This document shows positions 29,953 to 41,044 of a stretch of 45,571 nt of DNA, one piece after another. The notes under the pieces were generated by a model. That model did no database searches, was not told where the DNA came from, and saw nothing but the letters and a program-made list of their open reading frames with translations. Every line of letters starts with the position of its first letter. Position 1 is the first letter of the stretch. The DNA lies in NCBI RefSeq assembly GCF_002286985.1, contig NZ_NSKC01000016.1:1-45571 (forward strand), written 5' to 3'. The DNA is from Halorubrum salipaludis. GTDB taxonomy: Archaea > Halobacteriota > Halobacteria > Halobacteriales > Haloferacaceae. The translations under genes and the position numbers were made by a program.

Positions 29953-31205
29953 CGGGCGCCGACCGGCTCGCGCTCTCGGCGACGATCGACGCGCCCGACG
30001 TACCAGTGATCGAGGTCGCCTCCCCGACCCGCCGCGACGAGGCCCGCAGTGCGATGGCGGCGGCGGCCGGGCTCCGGGACCGAGGCGTTCCGGTCCGGGA
30101 TGTCGCGGTCGCGGTCCGGGACCTCGACTCCTACGAGGAGCCGCTGTTCCGGGCGGCGATCCAGCACGAGATCGCGCCCGTGTTCTGGACGCAGCTCCGC
30201 GTGACTCGAACCCGGCCGTACGCCCTCGTCGAGTCGGTGTGCGAGGCGCTGGCCGGAGACGCCGTCGACCGCGAGACGCTCCTCCGCCCACTCGAACTCC
30301 GGTGGTCCCCGGCCGCCGCCTCCGCCGCCGATCCGGGGTCCGCGGCGTGGCCGATCGAACCCGCGGCGGTCCACCGGGCTCGGGAGGCCCTCCCGGAGGG
30401 CGCGCGGCCGGTTTCCGAGTGGACCGAGGCGATCGATTCGAGCGCCGGGGTCGACGACCGGTTCCGCCGGTTCGTCGGGTGGCTCGACGCCGCCCCGGAG
30501 CCGGAGCCGGCGTCGGTCGCCTCGGTGCTCGGCGAGGCGATCGAGGGGTACGCCGACCGCGGGCTCCCGGAGACGAAGGCCGCCGACTCGCCGGCGCTGC
30601 TCGACACCGAGACCGACGCGCGGGCTGTCGTGCGGGTCCGCACCCTCGTCCGACAGCTGCGCCACAAGTTCGCTGACCGCCTCGCGGAGGGGACGCTGGA
30701 GCGCTCGTGGGCCGACGCCGCCGACCTCGCCCGCGTCATCGCCACGCAGCGGCCCGGTCGGCGGGAGCACTCGAACGCCCGCGCGCTCGACATCTTCGAG
30801 GCGAACGATCTCTGGGCGCTCGACGTCCCGTACGTGATCGCGGTCGGGCTGACGGCCGAGGAGTGGCCGCGGCCGTCGCAGTCCGCGCTTCCCCCGGAGT
30901 TCCGAGAGGCCGTCCTCCGGGGCGAGGGCCCGACGGGAGCGCTCGCGCCGCAGCCGGCGTGGGTCGGCGGCCGCGACCGCGACCAGTTCGTCGACGCGCT
31001 CCGGACGGCGGGGGACTGCGTCGTCGTCACCCGTCACACCCGGACCCCGAGCGGCGACGACGTAGCGCGGTCCCCCCTGCTCGACCACGTCGAGACGCGG
31101 CGGGTCTCCGAGGAGTCCCGGCGGCGACTGGTCGGAACGGATCCGGAGCTTCCGCCGGAACTTCGGGCGATCGTCGACGGGGACACGGAGGGGGACGATG
31201 GCTGA
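29949..31205 (+). CDS. AddB-like helicase-nuclease accessory subunit, C-terminal half without nuclease
   Basis: From ATG 29949 the protein has 418 residues. It opens with PVIEVASPTRRDEARSAMAAAAGL and VAVAVRDLDSYEEPLFRAAI, like the second helicase-like domain of AddB. Later it has DVPYVIAVGLTAEEWPRP, the AddB-type 'Gl.dg.wP' element, and TAGDCVVVTRHTR. It ends at RAIVDGDTEGDDG, with no PD-(D/E)XK or Fe-S cysteines, unlike bacterial AddB. It overlaps the UvrD-family gene by 8 nt. Confidence 0.65.
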   Translation: MTGADRLALSATIDAPDVPVIEVASPTRRDEARSAMAAAAGLRDRGVPVRDVAVAVRDLDSYEEPLFRAAIQHEIAPVFWTQLRVTRTRPYALVESVCEALAGDAVDRETLLRPLELRWSPAAASAADPGSAAWPIEPAAVHRAREALPEGARPVSEWTEAIDSSAGVDDRFRRFVGWLDAAPEPEPASVASVLGEAIEGYADRGLPETKAADSPALLDTETDARAVVRVRTLVRQLRHKFADRLAEGTLERSWADAADLARVIATQRPGRREHSNARALDIFEANDLWALDVPYVIAVGLTAEEWPRPSQSALPPEFREAVLRGEGPTGALAPQPAWVGGRDRDQFVDALRTAGDCVVVTRHTRTPSGDDVARSPLLDHVETRRVSEESRRRLVGTDPELPPELRAIVDGDTEGDDG

Positions 31206-34200
31206 TGACGGCGAGGACGGCGACGACGGCCCCCTCAGGCTACGAGGCGCACAGCGGGAGATCCGGGACGCGTACGTCGCGTCCGACGCCGGGCTGTTCA
31301 CCCTCGACTGCGTTCCGGGCGCCGGCAAGTCGGTCGTCGCCCACCACGTCGCCGCCGAGGACCTCCTCCGCCGCTACGCGGCCGGGGATCGGACCCCCGA
31401 GCAACACGTCGCGGTCGTCTCGTTCAACCGCGACGAGGCGGCCGAGATCGTCCCGGCGATCTGCGACCGGCTGCGGGCGATCGTCGAGGGAGACCTCGTC
31501 CCCGCCGCGGCCGAGGTCAGCGAGGCGGAGCTGCGATACCTCCAGCAGCGCGTGCGACAGGCGCCCTACGCGGGCACGATAGACGGGTTCCTGCGCGGGA
31601 TATTCCGGGAGTTCGCCGCCGACATCGGCTTCGACGAGGTGCCGTCGGTCGGGAACGACGCGCTCCTGCGGCGCGTCCACCGCGACTGCTACGAGTCGCT
31701 CCGCGGCGAGTCGGACCACGCCCGGCGGCTCCGCCGCCTGGAAGACGCGTACCCCGACGGCGAGTACGACGCCGGCGTCGAGGAGATGCTCGCGGACGCG
31801 CTGCGGTACTGCCGCGACCGACGCCTCTCGACCGAGGCGTTCCGGTCGGCGCTGACGCGGACGCGCGACTCCGTGTACCCCGACGGGAAACCCGACTCGT
31901 TCGACGACATCGCGCGGTCGGTCGCGCGGTTCGTCGAGGGCGAGAGCGAGAGCGTCGAGGGCGAGGACTCCAGAGACGGGGGCGCCGCCGACCGCGTCCG
32001 CGAGGCGGTGACCGGCTCGGACCGGGAGCGCCTGCTCGCCGCCGACCGCGAGCTGTACGACGCGTGGGACGCGCGCATCGACGACTTCTGTGCCGTCCTC
32101 TCGGCGTATCGGGCTCGTTACCGCGAGGCGGTCCGCGAGCGCGGCGTCGTCTCGCACACCGACGTGGCGTACCTCGTGGACGCGTACTTCGCCGACCCGG
32201 AGGAGCGGCCGGACGTTCCGGATCCGCTCCGCGCGGTCGACGCCACGCACCGCGACCGGGTGCTCCGGACGTACCGGTCGCGGATCCGGAGCCTAGTCAT
32301 CGACGAGGCGCAGGACGTCTCGGCCGTCCAGCACGCCGCACTCTCCCACGTCGTGACCGACGACTCGCGCGTGTTCGCCTGCGGCGACGTGCGTCAGGGC
32401 ATCTACCTGTGGCGCCACGCCGACCCGCGGTGGTTCGCCGCCGCGACGACCGAGGGGACCTACCTCGGCGTGGACTGGGACGTTCACGAGAACCGGACGG
32501 CGACGGCCACGTACCGGTGCGCACCCGATGTCGCCGCGGGGATCAACGCGATCGCGGAACCGGTGTTCACCGACCCGGCCCGCGGGGGGCTCGGCGACCT
32601 CGACGCCTCGTACCCGCGGTTGGACGCGGCCCGCGAGGGGGCTCGTGATCTCGACGGCGACGCTGACTTCGACGGCGATTCCCCCGCGGTCCACGTCTCG
32701 TCGTTCGCCGGCGTCGGCCGTCCCGGCTCCGCGACGTGGGCGGATCCCGACGGAGCGACCGGGGAGGCGAACGTGCTCGCGACCCACGTCTCGCGGGGAC
32801 TCGCCGACGGGACCTTCCGCGACGCCGACGGCGACCCGCTCGGCGTCACGGTGCTGTTCCGCCGCGGGACGCGGATGCCCGAGTACGAGGCGGCGTTCGC
32901 CGCCGAGGAGCTCCGCGTCCGCACCGCGACCGACGCGTTATTCGACTCCCCCGCGGTCGAGGCTGTGCTCGCCGTCTGCGAGTGGCTGATCGCGCCCGGA
33001 TCCCCGGAGCGCACGGCGGAACTACTCACCGAGTCACCGCTGAGCGGCACCTTCGACTCGGCCCCGTTCGAGGCGGGCTCGTGGGACCTCGATCGGGCGC
33101 TCGACGACGACTCGGCCGACCTCTCGGACGCGCAGCGACGGGTCGTCCGCGGGCTCGTCCGGCTCCGCGACCGGCGCGACGCCGTCGACCGGCTTCCGGC
33201 GAGCGCGTACGTCGAGGACGTGATCGAGGCGCTCGCGCTGCGGGCCGACCCCAACGGGTGCGTCGACGAGACGGAGCCGGCCCAGCGGGTCGCGAACGTG
33301 GACGCGCTCGTCGAGACGGTCGCCGAGTGGGAGGGTGACGCCCGTCTCTCACCCGCCGAGCTGGTCGACCTCGCGGAGCCGTTTCGCGAGGACCCGAGCG
33401 TCGGCCCGGCGCAGCCGAGCGCGGCCGGCGCCGACTACGACGTCGAGTTCCGCACGGTTCACCGGGCCAAGGGGGACCAGGACGACGTGGTCGTCGTCGC
33501 CGACCCCGCCTTCGAGGTCTGGGCGCGCGGGCCCCACACTCGGCGATTCGTCGCGCAGGGGGAGATCGCAGGGCTCGCCCCGCCGACGGACACGGACGTG
33601 CCCGAGGACATCGCCGTCCCGCCGTTCGACGGCGGGCTGTACGGCGCCGGGGACGGCTGGGGCCGCGACGCCGGGCTCCGCTGGGTGACGGCCCGCTGGC
33701 GGGACTCGGTTGCCGATTCCCTTGCCGGGTCCGCCGAGTCCGCCGGTCGCGACGCCCTCGTCGGCCCGGAGCGGCTCCGCCGCGTGGCAGAGAACGAGCG
33801 CGCCGAGGCGTGGCGGCTGCTGTACGTGGCGCTGACGCGGGCCCGGGACCACCTCGTCGTGCCCCTTCCGCGCTCGGACGGGGGCGAGGACCGGCCGCGG
33901 GACCGGTGGCTCGACGCGCTCCGCGACGGGCTGGCGTTCCCCCGCGACGGCGGCGACTCCTACGAGCTGCGGCTCGACGCGGGCCAGGACCGAGACCCGA
34001 ACCGAGACGCGATCGAGATCGGCGTCAACGACGTGGACCTGTTTGCCGGCCGCGACGACCCAGCGCCTCAAACCGGGCGCGACCGCGTCGCCGTCTCCCC
34101 GCCGCGCCGCGACCGGCTCGACCCGTGGATCCCCCGGTTCCTGAGCCCCAGCACGATGTACCCGCTGACGGAGGACGCGGACCGGTACGCGCTCGCCCAC

Positions 34201-34848
34201 CTGCTGAACGAGCCGCTGCACACGACGGCGAACGATGTCGACGACGACCTCCCGCTCCGATTCGACCGGCTCGGCCCCGAGTCGGTGGGGACGTGTCTCC
34301 ACGACGCGCTCACGGAGCTGGTCGCTCGCGGCGTCGACGAGCGGGCGATCCGGACGACGGGACCGCAGGTACGCGCGGCGTTCGACGAGGCCGTGACCGC
34401 GCTCCCGAAACGCGTCGGCGAGGCCGAACGCGAGGGGATGTTCGCGTTCTTCGAGACCGTTCTCGGCGACTTTCTCGACTCCGACCTGTGGGACCGGATC
34501 GCGGACCCGGCGACCGCGGTCGCCGTCGAACGCCCGCTGGACGGCCTGGCCGAGGTCGGCGACCTCGAGGTCGAAATCCACGGCCGGGCGGACTTCGTCG
34601 TCGAGTACCCGGACGGGGACCGGTTCGTGACCGACGTGAAGATCGCCCTGGCCGAGCCGACCCGCGAGACCCGACGCCGGTACGAGCTCCAGATCGCGGC
34701 GTACGCGTTCCTCGCGGAGCAGCGCGGCGCGTCCGACGCGACGGTCCGCCGGACCGTCGAGACGTTCGGCGTCGCGCGCGAGACGACGACGAGCTCGTGG
34801 CCGGCCGACATCGTTCGCCGGCGACTGCGACGGCTCCTCGACCGATGA
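31198..34848 (+). CDS. UvrD/AddA-like helicase with C-terminal PD-(D/E)XK nuclease
   Basis: The 1216-residue SF1 helicase has Walker A CVPGAGKSVV (38-47) and DEAQD in LVIDEAQDVSAVQ. It also has GDVRQGIYLWRHADP (motif III), VEFRTVHRAKGDQ (V) and LLYVALTRARDHLVVP (VI). A RecB-type nuclease ends the protein: GTCLHDAL, GRADFVVE, TDVKIA and YELQIAAYAF (QxxxY). This layout matches AddA, the motor-nuclease of double-strand-break end resection. With the two AddB-like genes it forms a tight three-gene operon. Archaea usually resect with HerA-NurA-Mre11-Rad50, so this is a noteworthy addition. Confidence 0.9.
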   Translation: MADDGEDGDDGPLRLRGAQREIRDAYVASDAGLFTLDCVPGAGKSVVAHHVAAEDLLRRYAAGDRTPEQHVAVVSFNRDEAAEIVPAICDRLRAIVEGDLVPAAAEVSEAELRYLQQRVRQAPYAGTIDGFLRGIFREFAADIGFDEVPSVGNDALLRRVHRDCYESLRGESDHARRLRRLEDAYPDGEYDAGVEEMLADALRYCRDRRLSTEAFRSALTRTRDSVYPDGKPDSFDDIARSVARFVEGESESVEGEDSRDGGAADRVREAVTGSDRERLLAADRELYDAWDARIDDFCAVLSAYRARYREAVRERGVVSHTDVAYLVDAYFADPEERPDVPDPLRAVDATHRDRVLRTYRSRIRSLVIDEAQDVSAVQHAALSHVVTDDSRVFACGDVRQGIYLWRHADPRWFAAATTEGTYLGVDWDVHENRTATATYRCAPDVAAGINAIAEPVFTDPARGGLGDLDASYPRLDAAREGARDLDGDADFDGDSPAVHVSSFAGVGRPGSATWADPDGATGEANVLATHVSRGLADGTFRDADGDPLGVTVLFRRGTRMPEYEAAFAAEELRVRTATDALFDSPAVEAVLAVCEWLIAPGSPERTAELLTESPLSGTFDSAPFEAGSWDLDRALDDDSADLSDAQRRVVRGLVRLRDRRDAVDRLPASAYVEDVIEALALRADPNGCVDETEPAQRVANVDALVETVAEWEGDARLSPAELVDLAEPFREDPSVGPAQPSAAGADYDVEFRTVHRAKGDQDDVVVVADPAFEVWARGPHTRRFVAQGEIAGLAPPTDTDVPEDIAVPPFDGGLYGAGDGWGRDAGLRWVTARWRDSVADSLAGSAESAGRDALVGPERLRRVAENERAEAWRLLYVALTRARDHLVVPLPRSDGGEDRPRDRWLDALRDGLAFPRDGGDSYELRLDAGQDRDPNRDAIEIGVNDVDLFAGRDDPAPQTGRDRVAVSPPRRDRLDPWIPRFLSPSTMYPLTEDADRYALAHLLNEPLHTTANDVDDDLPLRFDRLGPESVGTCLHDALTELVARGVDERAIRTTGPQVRAAFDEAVTALPKRVGEAEREGMFAFFETVLGDFLDSDLWDRIADPATAVAVERPLDGLAEVGDLEVEIHGRADFVVEYPDGDRFVTDVKIALAEPTRETRRRYELQIAAYAFLAEQRGASDATVRRTVETFGVARETTTSSWPADIVRRRLRRLLDR

Positions 34849-37322: not shown

Positions 37323-37517
37323 TTACGCCTTCTGTGCCGCCTGCGACTTCTTCTGCGTGACGTAGCCGGCGATCCGGTTGCGGACGCCCTTCGACTCGAC
37401 GGTCGTCAGCGCGGTGACGCTCTCCTTGTTCGTCTCGAAGTCCGTGTTGAACGAGTCGGGGTACCGCTCAAGCAGGACGTTCCCGAGCTGCTTGATGTAC
37501 TTGGGCTTGATGGCCAT
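37323..37517 (-). CDS. rps17e: Ribosomal protein S17e
   Basis: The 64-residue protein MAIKPKYIKQLGNVLLERYP... is the archaeal/eukaryal small-subunit protein S17e, with the conserved FNTDFETNKESV and KGVRNRIAGYVT segments. It binds the small ribosomal subunit. A CCCTTTTAG box lies about 30 nt before the ATG. Confidence 0.96.
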   Translation of the reverse strand: MAIKPKYIKQLGNVLLERYPDSFNTDFETNKESVTALTTVESKGVRNRIAGYVTQKKSQAAQKA

Positions 37518-37606: not shown

Positions 37607-38242
37607 TCACCGCTCGTCCGCCCGCTCCCGCCACCCGGTCACCTCGTCGATCGCGGCGAACGCCTCGCGCTCGGCGGGGCCGCCGCACCGCTCGACCACG
37701 TCCGCGAAGTACCGCAGCCGGTCCAAGAGCTCGTCCGTGTCGAATCCGGGTACGCCCAGCCGCGAGGCGGCCACCGTCGCGTCGACGACCGCGCCGAACC
37801 CGCGGTTGACCGTCGGGACGCACTCCCTCACGACCGCGCCCTCGACCGGGTCGAGCGCCCACGTCCGGATCGTCGTGTCGTCGTCGGTCTCGCTCCCGAC
37901 CTCCTCGACGGTCACCTCGACCCACGCGTCGGCGGTCGGGAGCACCGGCTCGTCGACCTCGCGGACCGTCAGCGCGGCGTCGACGAACGTCCGTGGGTCG
38001 GTCGTGAACTGGACGACGCCGCCGCCGCGCTCGGCGAAGTTCCGCCACGTCCGAGTGCGCCCGTACGTCCGCGCGGTGACCGGCTCGTCCGGGTCGTCCG
38101 GCGCGTGGAGTCCGAGCGCCGCGACGTTCCAGCGGTCGTTCGGCCCGAGCGTCGTCACGACCGACTCGGTGACGCCGCGGAGGGCGACGGGCCACCCTTC
38201 GGGGACGGCGTCGGAACCGTCCTCGCGGTCGCTCCCGCTCAC
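37607..38242 (-). CDS. DUF447 family protein
   Basis: Translation begins at GTG 38240-38242, which overlaps the upstream stop (GTGA). The 211-residue protein contains the DUF447 pattern: VTESVVTTLGPNDRWNVAALGLH, TWRNFAERGGGVVQFTTDPRTFVDAALT, and NRGFGAVVDATVAASRLGV. The family has a flavin-binding-like beta barrel (NWNVAAMG-type). It is an unassigned member of tetrahydromethanopterin/methanofuran gene neighbourhoods in methylotrophs and methanogens (COG2457, recalled). Last gene of a four-gene overlapping operon. Confidence 0.87.
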   Translation of the reverse strand: MSGSDREDGSDAVPEGWPVALRGVTESVVTTLGPNDRWNVAALGLHAPDDPDEPVTARTYGRTRTWRNFAERGGGVVQFTTDPRTFVDAALTVREVDEPVLPTADAWVEVTVEEVGSETDDDTTIRTWALDPVEGAVVRECVPTVNRGFGAVVDATVAASRLGVPGFDTDELLDRLRYFADVVERCGGPAEREAFAAIDEVTGWRERADER

Positions 38243-39210
38243 GGCGCCCCCTCCGATTCGGCTCCCTGGCGAAGTGCCACGTACAGCGCCGCGCACGTGA
38301 GGTCGGCGGTCGTCCCGGGGTTGATCCCCTCGTCGACGAAGGCGGTCGCCAGCCCCTCGGCGTCGTCGAGGTCGGCGCCGTGGACCGCCGCGGCGTCGAT
38401 TCCGTCGAGCCCGACGAGCGCGTCGGGGTTCCCGTCAGCTCCGCCCAACACCGCGGCCGCCCGCTCGCTGGCCTCGCGGGCCGTCTCCGGGCCGTGATTC
38501 GCCGCGACAAGGGTGTCGGGCTCGGCCGCGAGCAGGCCGAGGTACGCCCGGGCCGCGCGGTCGGTCAGCGGCCCCTCGTCGCTCCGGATCCACTCGGCCG
38601 CGCGGAACGTCCGCGGGAACCCCTCGACCCACTCCCGCGCGTTGCGGTCGGGGACTCTGTCAGCGTCCTCGGAACCGCCGGCGTCCGCGGGATCCGCGGA
38701 GAGCGCCATCACGTCCCGCAGGGTCGTGCCCCGCTCGCGAAGCGCGGGGGCCGCGTCGCTCCCCCGTCGCACGTCGAGGTCGGCGGCGTCCGCCGGCGGG
38801 TCCGCCACCGCGACGTCGACGTGCTCGAAGGCGCGGTAGAACGCGACCGCGTCGTCGACGGTCGTCGCTCGGGCCGCCCGGTCGGCGGCTTCCCGAGAGA
38901 GCCCGTCATCGACTCCTCTCGCGACCGTCGCTCGGAGGAGGGGCACGAGCAGGAGCAGACAGCCGAACTGGGTGTTCGTCCCGGCCCGTTCCGCCATCCC
39001 CGCGACGCCGCGCTCGAAGGCGCGACCGATTCCGGTCACCCCGTCGGCGGCCAGCTCCAGCCCCTCGCGGGCGCCGACCGCCCCGCCGAGGAACGCTTCG
39101 AACCGGAGGTCGTCGAGGTCGCGGTGCCGGTCGACGTTCCCGGGTTTCGGGGTTCCGGCCACCTCCAGCAGGAGCGCGAGCGTCGCGTCGTCGACGGGGT
39201 TCGATTTCAC
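38239..39210 (-). CDS. CitG-like triphosphoribosyl-dephospho-CoA synthase family protein
   Basis: GTG at 39208-39210 overlaps the preceding stop by 4 nt, giving 323 residues starting [29 protein letters not shown]. The family signature TPKPGNVDRHRDLDD and the all-helical body with GTNTQFGCLLLLVPLL, and EGINPGTTADLTCAALYVAL at the end, are intact. The named reaction makes the citrate-lyase prosthetic group precursor, but no citrate lyase is nearby. In archaea and methylotrophs the family (COG1767) clusters with C1-cofactor genes, so the real substrate is likely different. Confidence 0.88.
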   Translation of the reverse strand: MKSNPVDDATLALLLEVAGTPKPGNVDRHRDLDDLRFEAFLGGAVGAREGLELAADGVTGIGRAFERGVAGMAERAGTNTQFGCLLLLVPLLRATVARGVDDGLSREAADRAARATTVDDAVAFYRAFEHVDVAVADPPADAADLDVRRGSDAAPALRERGTTLRDVMALSADPADAGGSEDADRVPDRNAREWVEGFPRTFRAAEWIRSDEGPLTDRAARAYLGLLAAEPDTLVAANHGPETAREASERAAAVLGGADGNPDALVGLDGIDAAAVHGADLDDAEGLATAFVDEGINPGTTADLTCAALYVALRQGAESEGAP

Positions 39211-40022
39211 GGCGGCGCCTCCGGCGGCTCCGCGCCGCCAGAACCGGGCAGCTCTCCCTCTCGCCACGCCGCCACCGCGTCGGCGACCCGAGAGAGGGCG
39301 GCCGGGCGCTCGCTCGGCCGCCCCACGCTCACGGCGTCCGCGCCGTACGCGGCGTACTCAGCGACGGTCGCTCTCCCCCGCACGCCGTTGTTGGCGATCA
39401 CGGTGAGACCGTCGCGGGGGCGTTCGGCCTCCCGACGCTCCCTGCCGCCGGTCAGCTCCGAGACGACCGCCTCGGAGTCCATCGCGTCGACGTGGAGCCA
39501 GTCGGCGCCCGCGTCCGCGACCGCGTCCGCGACGGCGGCGAGGTCGACGCCCGGGACCTCCGCGCGGACCTTCACGCTCGTCGTCGCGCCGGTCTCGGCG
39601 GCGGCGCTCACGTACTCGGCCAGCCGGTCGGCGTCCCGGAGGAGCGACTCGCCGCAGCCGACCGCGCGAAGCTCCGGCTGTCGGCAGTGCGCATTCACCT
39701 CGCAGACCGCGCCGCGCTCGGCGCAGACCCGCGCCGCCTCGCGAACGGGACCGACGGTCGCGCTCCGGACGTTGACGCCGGGGCGGAGAGGGGTGTCGGC
39801 GAGCCGACCGAGCTGACGGTCGATCCACGCGAGCGGGTCCGCGGGGAGGAACTCCGAGCGGTCGCGGGCGACGAGGTCGCGCGCCGCGGCCCGACTGGCC
39901 GGGTCGAGCGCGATCCCGCCGAGGACTGCGGCGTCGACGTACGGGGCTGCGGCCCGCGCCCAGTCGGCGTCGGCCGCGCCGCTGAGGCTGGCCGCGACGA
40001 GGAAGGGATCGCGCTCGCTCAT
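39207..40022 (-). CDS. DUS-like FMN TIM-barrel protein
   Basis: ATG 40020-40022 overlaps the cofD stop by 4 nt and gives 271 residues. The body resembles tRNA-dihydrouridine synthase: [25 protein letters not shown], and a DUS-like catalytic element [23 protein letters not shown] with the Cys of NxxC present. [24 protein letters not shown] and [29 protein letters not shown] at the end suit FMN binding. At 271 residues it lacks the usual C-terminal helical tRNA-binding domain. Because it sits in a cofactor operon it may reduce a pterin or flavin-like substrate instead of tRNA (inference). Confidence 0.82.
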
Positions 40023-41044
40023 CGGATCTCCTCCGGGTCCGCCACTGCCTCCACCGCCCCCAGCGCCCGCTCGCACGCCCGAGCGACGCGCTCGGCGTCG
40101 TCGGCGTCGTCGATGCGGGTGTCGGTGCGCTCGACGTGTCGGCCGGGCAGCTCGGTCGGGTCGTCGTCGTCGAGGACGAACGCGTCCGCGAACGGGTAGG
40201 CGTCGGCGACGCCCGCGGTCGAGGGCTCCTTCCCCACGCCGTCCATCAGGTCGGCGGCGGGCCCGGAGAACACCTCGTCGCCGACGAACGGCGAGACGGC
40301 GACCACGGGGGTCGACGCCAGCGCCGCCTCGACGCCCGGGAGCGCGAGCATCGGGCCGACGCTCGTCACGGGGTTAGAGGGGCCGACGACGACCGGCTCG
40401 GCGAGCGCGTCCTCGACGGCGGGCGTCGGCTCCGAGTCGTCCGCGCCCCGGAACTCCACGTCGGCGACCGCGGGCTCGCCCCGGCGCGCGATCCAGTACT
40501 CCTGGAAGTGAATCGTCTCCCCCGACTCGGTGTGGATCAGCGTCGCGACCGGGTCGTCGGACATCGGGAGGAGGTCGACGTCGAGGTCAAAGGCGTCCGC
40601 GAGCGTCCGAACGGCCTCGGTGAGGGTGTGCCCCTCGTCGAGCAGGCTCGTGCGCGTGACGTGGACCGCGCGGTCGCGGTCGCCGATCTCCATGAACTCG
40701 CCGACGCCCGAGAACCGCCGCCAGCGGGCGATCTCGCGGCCCGCCGTCTGCGCCTCGTCGTCGAGGTACCGGGGCACGGTCCCGCGTCCGACCGCCTCGG
40801 CGAGCCGGCGGAGCTCCTCGTGGGTCGCCGTCGTGTCGTCCGCGATCCCCCACCACGTCTCGCGGTCGAGGACGCCGCCGCCGGCGAACAGCACGGTGTC
40901 GACGTCGGGGCAGACGAGGTGGCCGCCGAGCTCGACGTCGTCGCCCGTGTTGGCGACGACCGCGATCTCGTCGGGGTCCCACACGCGGGTCGCCCCCTCG
41001 AGGAGCTTCGGCGTCCCCGTGCCGCCGGCGAGGAACGTGACCAT
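40019..41044 (-). CDS. cofD: 2-phospho-L-lactate transferase (coenzyme F420 synthesis)
   Basis: The start at 41042-41044 gives 341 residues with the CofD signature [43 protein letters not shown] and [19 protein letters not shown]. CofD joins the phospholactyl/PEP-derived unit to the 5-deazaflavin Fo to give F420-0. An ATACAAAT box about 30 nt upstream supports this start over an extended frame. It is the first gene of the cofD/DUS-like/CitG-like/DUF447 operon. Confidence 0.95.

Follow-up and report, generated by a model that had tools for sequence, protein, structure and literature searches.

The 45,571-nucleotide contig NZ_NSKC01000016.1 of Halorubrum salipaludis (the window) carries on its minus strand a run of four genes, cofD, a dihydrouridine synthase-like (DUS-like) gene, a CitG-like gene and a DUF447 gene, arranged head to tail from position 41044 to position 37607 (Table 1). 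The original prediction, made from the sequence, described these genes as overlapping end to end by 4 nucleotides, and this is what we find, with the junctions reading ATGA, GTGA and GTGA; the next gene downstream, rps17e, follows 90 nucleotides after DUF447. The comparisons below suggest that the CitG-like and DUF447 proteins probably act together in building a methanopterin-like methyl carrier in haloarchaea, in which case the operon would link CofD, which acts late in F420 synthesis, with two builders of the carrier side chain.

Table 1. Coordinates of the four genes, their overlaps and the downstream neighbor
Feature	Position	Strand	Size or basis
cofD, 2-phospho-L-lactate transferase (F420 biosynthesis)	40019..41044	-	341 amino acids; TIGR01819 equivalog
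DUS-like TIM-barrel reductase of the flavin mononucleotide (FMN) type, stand-alone	39207..40022	-	271 amino acids; PF01207, TIGR00736
CitG-like nucleotide ribosyltransferase; alpha-ribosyltransferase role proposed for the side chain of the methyl carrier	38239..39210	-	323 amino acids; PF01874
DUF447 FMN-type split-barrel protein; proposed flavin-dependent reductase after beta-ribofuranosylaminobenzene 5'-phosphate (beta-RFAP) synthase	37607..38242	-	211 amino acids; PF04289, PF20766
Overlap cofD/DUS-like, 4 nucleotides, ATGA	40019..40022	-	sequence
Overlap DUS-like/CitG-like, 4 nucleotides, GTGA	39207..39210	-	sequence
Overlap CitG-like/DUF447, 4 nucleotides, GTGA	38239..38242	-	sequence
rps17e, conserved downstream neighbor outside the proposed pathway; marks the clean deletion in genomes lacking CitG/DUF447	37323..37517	-	reading frame, tblastn across loci

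By profile score, the family assignments are firm for three of the four proteins. CofD, which had been named as an F420 enzyme, scores 375.2 bits, well above the TIGR01819 equivalog cut-off of 257.45; the CitG-like protein matches PF01874 at 184 bits, and the DUF447 protein exceeds the cut-offs for both Pfam halves (PF04289, DUF447_N, 81.5 bits; PF20766, DUF447_C, 58.8 bits). The assignment of the DUS-like protein is weaker, with a PF01207 score (22.7 bits) barely over the cut-off and a score of 122.9 bits, below the cut-off of 218.7, for TIGR00736, the MJ0144 family of RNA dihydrouridine synthase-like proteins. DUF447 has relatives in PDB (2iml, 2nr4, 2ptf and 3b5m), and its fold is the split barrel seen in solved relatives such as MTH863; some of these relatives, we presume, bind FMN.

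The CitG-like protein keeps the motifs PKPGxVDR and NTxxG, which are common to Escherichia coli CitG, and together with the PF01874 match these would suit a genuine triphosphoribosyl-dephospho-coenzyme A synthase serving the acyl-carrier subunit of a lyase. Such a role is nevertheless very improbable: the protein reaches just 14 to 15 bits against the CitG (TIGR03125) and MdcB (TIGR03132) equivalogs, whose cut-offs are 272 to 282, no citX or lyase genes were recognized in the sampled neighborhoods, and the gene occurs in 141 of the 148 Halobacteriota genomes sampled, always being paired with DUF447 in haloarchaea.

Gene order and co-loss of the CitG-like and DUF447 genes

The four-gene arrangement is not due to chance. 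Across 148 genomes of the phylum Halobacteriota, including 24 haloarchaea, CofD is present in 142, the CitG-like protein in 141 and DUS in 93. The CitG-like and DUF447 genes lie no more than 1.7 kb apart in 119 of the 137 genomes that hold both, and are adjacent in all 21 haloarchaea that do. DUS and CitG are also adjacent in 53 of 69 non-haloarchaeal genomes, and DUS-CitG-DUF447 is therefore an old order shared with methanogens. CofD and DUS, in contrast, are neighbors in 22 of 23 haloarchaea, as against just 7 of the 69 other genomes, and cofD is joined to the older group in haloarchaea and some few further lineages.

The proximity of CofD to CitG-like and DUF447 genes, seen in 19 of the 21 haloarchaea that carry both and in a small number of further lineages, together with a cofE-cofD-citG-DUF447 order at one locus (L039), raises the question as to whether the two proteins modify F420 itself, with an F420 derivative as the product and co-transcription with cofD as the consequence. 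We consider this unlikely. CofD is kept in every haloarchaeon sampled, including those from which CitG and DUF447 have been lost, and in most of the rest of the phylum it is encoded apart from CitG, just 10 of 113 genomes having the two within 3.5 kb of each other. Furthermore, no CofD match was obtained in Sulfolobus acidocaldarius, which does have CitG and DUF447, and the Rhodopirellula DUF447 gene is fixed between pabA and mptG.

A different partnership emerges from the pattern of gene loss, for which CitG, MptG and Mch were surveyed in 145 haloarchaea, DUF447 in 24, and Mer and MetE in 20 chosen genomes. The CitG-like gene is absent from exactly three haloarchaea (G008, G060 and G119), and the MptG homolog (TIGR00144) is absent from the same three plus the draft genome G245 (Fisher p = 8e-6 for co-absence, treating genomes as independent and uncorrected for phylogeny); DUF447 is likewise missing from those three only. 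Every one of the 17 module-positive genomes has a Mer ortholog (284 to 332 bits), which the three losers lack, with no match in G008 or G060 and only a 133-bit paralog in G119. In 16 of those 17 genomes the two halves of split MetE are encoded side by side, and the window's genome has the catalytic half and the Meth_synt_1 half; G008 and G060 keep the catalytic half alone, without the pterin-binding half, and G119 has neither. In presence and absence, the CitG-like and DUF447 genes form a single unit with those for MptG, Mer and the pterin-binding half of MetE. CofD, DUS and Mch are kept in all three losers, and Mch was rejected as a member of the unit, since it is retained in all 145 haloarchaea.

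At the affected loci the flanking cofD-DUS and rps17e-asd pairs remain and CitG and DUF447 are cleanly gone, leaving just 41 nucleotides between DUS and rps17e in G008 and G060. In an Mch tree G119 falls inside its genus beside module-keeping genomes, with G008 and G060 elsewhere, and a single loss is allowed in 0 of 200 bootstrap trees; this requires two independent losses of CitG and DUF447. As a separate observation, the lone catalytic MetE half of G008 and G060 (L075, 6619-7704) lies beside ATP synthase genes and suggests a switch to another methyl donor.

An alternative explanation for these losses is that MptG, CitG and DUF447 make a non-pterin aryl-ribose cofactor, and that Mer and split MetE disappeared through methionine auxotrophy or genome reduction. 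The loser genomes are small (2.1 to 2.4 Mb), they retain Mch, and G119 lacks any methionine synthase match, all of which would fit. However, nothing has been lost from two further genomes of small size, G134 at 1.9 Mb and G217 at 2.2 Mb, and G008 and G060 have kept the catalytic MetE half, losing only the pterin-binding half and Mer. With the links to pabA and dihydromethanopterin reductase seen in other lineages, this leaves the non-pterin cofactor a minor, although real, chance.

In the planctomycete Rhodopirellula europaea, DUF447 follows a pabA-type amidotransferase gene and precedes a beta-RFAP synthase family gene, with 4-nucleotide overlaps on both sides, and the CitG-like gene sits elsewhere in the genome. 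In three archaeal lineages with Methanosarcina-type genomes (L037, L038 and L042), dihydromethanopterin reductase (DmrX) is encoded directly after DUF447; against the TIGR02700 cut-off of 251, two of these genes pass, at 410 and 286 bits, and the third falls slightly short, at 244 bits. At L041 an mptG-family gene lies 1.6 kb from DUF447. One further match from the single-protein DUF447 scan (L070) was discarded as a flavin reductase. Across the named control genomes, DUF447 and MptG are found in one and the same set of four archaea (Methanocaldococcus jannaschii, Methanosarcina acetivorans, Haloferax volcanii and S. acidocaldarius). In S. acidocaldarius the MptG, CitG and DUF447 families are all represented, as is Meth_synt_2, and there was no CofD, Mch or Mer match, so the MptG-CitG-DUF447 set is separable from F420. 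The Sulfolobus order is known to have a folate analog with methanopterin traits (PMC3261824), described there, after Zhou and White (1992), as having an aryl-tetrahydroxypentane side chain.

In haloarchaea, cofE lies directly upstream of mer in six of six genomes examined, that of the window included, and G018 has mptG, a phosphoesterase gene, cofE and mer in one cluster. CofD and CofE are thus each clustered with members of the co-lost set, which could be explained if Mer uses F420H2. Two other neighbors are recorded here in their own right. In two haloarchaea cofE-mer is immediately preceded by a small metallophosphoesterase gene, which in a third stands between mptG and cofE (L057, 7879-8436; L078, 7819-8343; L079, 8063-8551). 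As a candidate, it could encode the MptB-type cyclic phosphodiesterase still missing from haloarchaea, or else an enzyme that removes a phosphate group in this pathway. The MptG homolog also repeatedly adjoins a dihydroxy-acid dehydratase-like gene (L054, 3727-5445; L056, 8761-10515), identified by eye only.

A candidate methyl-carrier pathway

Because the CitG-like and DUF447 genes are kept or lost with MptG, Mer and the pterin-binding half of MetE, a methanopterin-like carrier is probable, and we regard the comparative evidence for the idea, drawn as it is from gene content and order, as strong. We place at roughly 60% the probability that haloarchaea build such a carrier, that CitG-like and DUF447 act on it after MptG, that Mer reduces it with F420, and that methionine synthesis consumes it. 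The original prediction is thus partly supported: its proposal that F420-linked one-carbon carrier chemistry persists in haloarchaea gains from the co-loss with MptG, Mer and the pterin subunit, from the position of DUF447 beside pabA and mptG or dihydromethanopterin reductase elsewhere, and from the clustering of the F420 genes.

After MptG, the ribose of the methanopterin side chain has to be opened reductively to give a pentitol, and an alpha-ribosyl phosphate has to be added; CitG transfers a ribosyl group from ATP in an alpha linkage. The MptG family reaction itself, from p-aminobenzoate and phosphoribosyl pyrophosphate (PRPP) to beta-RFAP, is established, and it would be carried out here by the homolog encoded elsewhere in the genome. 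The DUF447 flavin protein would then open the aryl-ribose reductively to an aryl-pentitol, for which the split-barrel fold of its solved relatives makes it the natural candidate, and the CitG-like protein would add an alpha-ribosyl unit from ATP or PRPP, the chemistry of CitG and the retained motifs making it the natural candidate for ribosyl transfer. Mer with F420H2 would reduce the methylene-tetrahydropterin to the methyl level, and the pterin-binding half of split MetE would hand the methyl group of the carrier to homocysteine. That the product is a pterin, that DUF447 and CitG-like take these two steps, and that the methyl group is used for methionine, we infer from the associations above.

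A fuller and more doubtful version, which we offer tentatively, gives haloarchaea two carriers, a folate for formyl and methylene groups and an aryl-pentitol pterin for the methionine methyl, with DUF447 as the ring-opening reductase and CitG-like as the alpha-ribosyltransferase. Since Methanosarcina barkeri uses both folate and methanopterin (PMC3261824), there is a precedent for two carriers in one archaeon.

The behavior of the haloarchaeal MptG and Mer proteins bears on this. Mer of the window's genome scores 466 bits, above the cut-off of 276 for the methylene-tetrahydromethanopterin reductase equivalog NF002619, and falls below TIGR03555; MptG scores 164 bits against the TIGR00144 subfamily, whose cut-off is 113.5. 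Several observations nonetheless weigh against a methanopterin-like carrier. At 166.7 bits, MptG is far under the cut-off of 328 for the beta-RFAP equivalog NF040726. DmrX was not found when 20 haloarchaea were searched with AfpA, a related model (TIGR02700 was not itself run genome-wide), the partial matches reaching 21 to 41 bits versus 103 to 117 bits for confirmed DmrX genes; the final reduction would thus fall to some other enzyme, of which dihydrofolate reductase is an example. As the losers all retain Mch, this enzyme does not need the proposed carrier, and haloarchaeal formyl and methenyl chemistry therefore probably runs on tetrahydrofolate. The draft genome G245 (70 contigs) has CitG and Mer with no MptG match, and the whole pattern rests on two independent losses in small genomes. 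We know of no report of methanopterin from haloarchaea. Lastly, published work holds that tetrahydrofolate is the carrier used by haloarchaea, and judges the MptG homolog HVO_2628 to be probably not a beta-RFAP synthase (PMC8305020).

A methanopterin-like carrier would contradict the view that tetrahydrofolate alone serves haloarchaea, and would, if true, revise it. A literature search found no publication in which DUF447 or CitG-like proteins of haloarchaea are tied to methanopterin or to methionine. About seven methanopterin-synthesis proteins were listed as unknown in 2011 (PMC3087415), the way in which Mer and Mch work in haloarchaea has been described as unclear (PMC7599335), and what F420 does in these organisms as undetermined (PMC8498797). 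The co-loss pattern offers a single answer to these three questions, in which CitG-like and DUF447 would build the carrier, Mer and F420 form the methyl group, and the split methionine synthase consume it. Should the tentative two-carrier version also be correct, DUF447 and CitG-like would fill two unassigned side-chain steps in all organisms that make methanopterin. The carrier pathway predicts methionine auxotrophy in strains without the citG-like, DUF447 or mptG-like gene, and because H. volcanii is genetically tractable and grows on minimal medium, this is directly testable.

The DUS-like protein

The DUS-like protein had been proposed to act on a cofactor alongside its neighbors, and its membership in their pathway is not supported: it is kept in all three CitG/DUF447 losers and is missing from G018, which kept the rest. 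It is not part of the co-loss unit; its loss pattern follows CofD, and it belongs to an F420/marker-9 neighborhood. Methanogen homologs (L037 and L040-L043) are fused to a cysteine-rich C-terminal domain, TIGR03277 (methanogenesis marker 9), which accounts for their length of about 380 amino acids; this domain was not found in the window protein, the haloarchaeal form being the N-terminal barrel of marker 9. At those same loci the fused DUS lies beside CitG, DUF447 and sometimes DmrX, which suggests a pterin or F420 role for marker 9. A general role as a dehydro-F420 reductase was considered for the DUS-like protein and rejected, since many F420 producers of the phylum have CofD and no DUS.

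The further claim that this protein lacks the tRNA-binding domain holds in the predicted structure, a TIM barrel (predicted local distance difference test score, pLDDT, 91) that stops after the barrel, with no C-terminal helical tRNA-binding domain in the model. Its nearest solved folds are tRNA Dus enzymes, with DusC at the top and a Thermus Dus also among them, and C113, K151, R153, H177 and D179 (NxHC..K..HxD) are invariant across 15 homologs. NxHC and HxD have been described as archaeal Dus variants, and 'archaeal Dus' is a recognized subfamily (PMC3674756). A conventional dihydrouridine synthase of tRNA (or rRNA) that simply happens to be co-transcribed would account for these folds and catalytic Cys, Lys and His residues, and for retention independent of CitG and DUF447. 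It would sit less easily with the missing tRNA-binding domain, the report that H. volcanii tRNA lacks dihydrouridine (PMC2584109), the marker-9 fusion in methanogens and the tight link to cofD, and we judge its chances to fall just short of even. The missing tRNA-binding domain and the reported lack of dihydrouridine in H. volcanii tRNA make it possible that the DUS-like protein acts on a substrate other than tRNA.

Elsewhere in the window, positions 31198-34848 of the plus strand hold a reading frame for a 1216-amino-acid UvrD/RecB-like helicase-nuclease.

Relationship to known systems

The CitG-like protein shares with the CitG/MdcB synthases its Pfam family and core motifs, and likely ribosyl transfer as well; it differs in gene neighborhood and in not being a member by the equivalog models. 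Similarly, the DUS-like protein has the barrel and catalytic residues of tRNA Dus enzymes (DusA/B/C), but is without their C-terminal tRNA-binding domain and has HxD rather than HxR, and NxHC rather than NxGC. Its counterpart in the marker 9 protein, the N-terminal DUS domain, likewise adjoins citG-DUF447; the haloarchaeal form is without the cysteine-rich C-terminal domain.

For the pathway as a whole there are two points of comparison. One is the modified folate of Sulfolobus, since haloarchaea share with S. acidocaldarius the MptG, CitG and DUF447 families, to which they add F420 and Mer. The other, tetrahydromethanopterin biosynthesis in methanogens and Planctomycetes (MptA/B, MptG and DmrX), differs from the haloarchaeal set, in which there is no methanogenesis, DmrX was not found in the genomes searched, and MptG is below its equivalog cut-off. 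Nonetheless, the MptG homolog, the CitG-like protein and DUF447 are common to both, and it is in those organisms that DUF447 adjoins mptG or dmrX.

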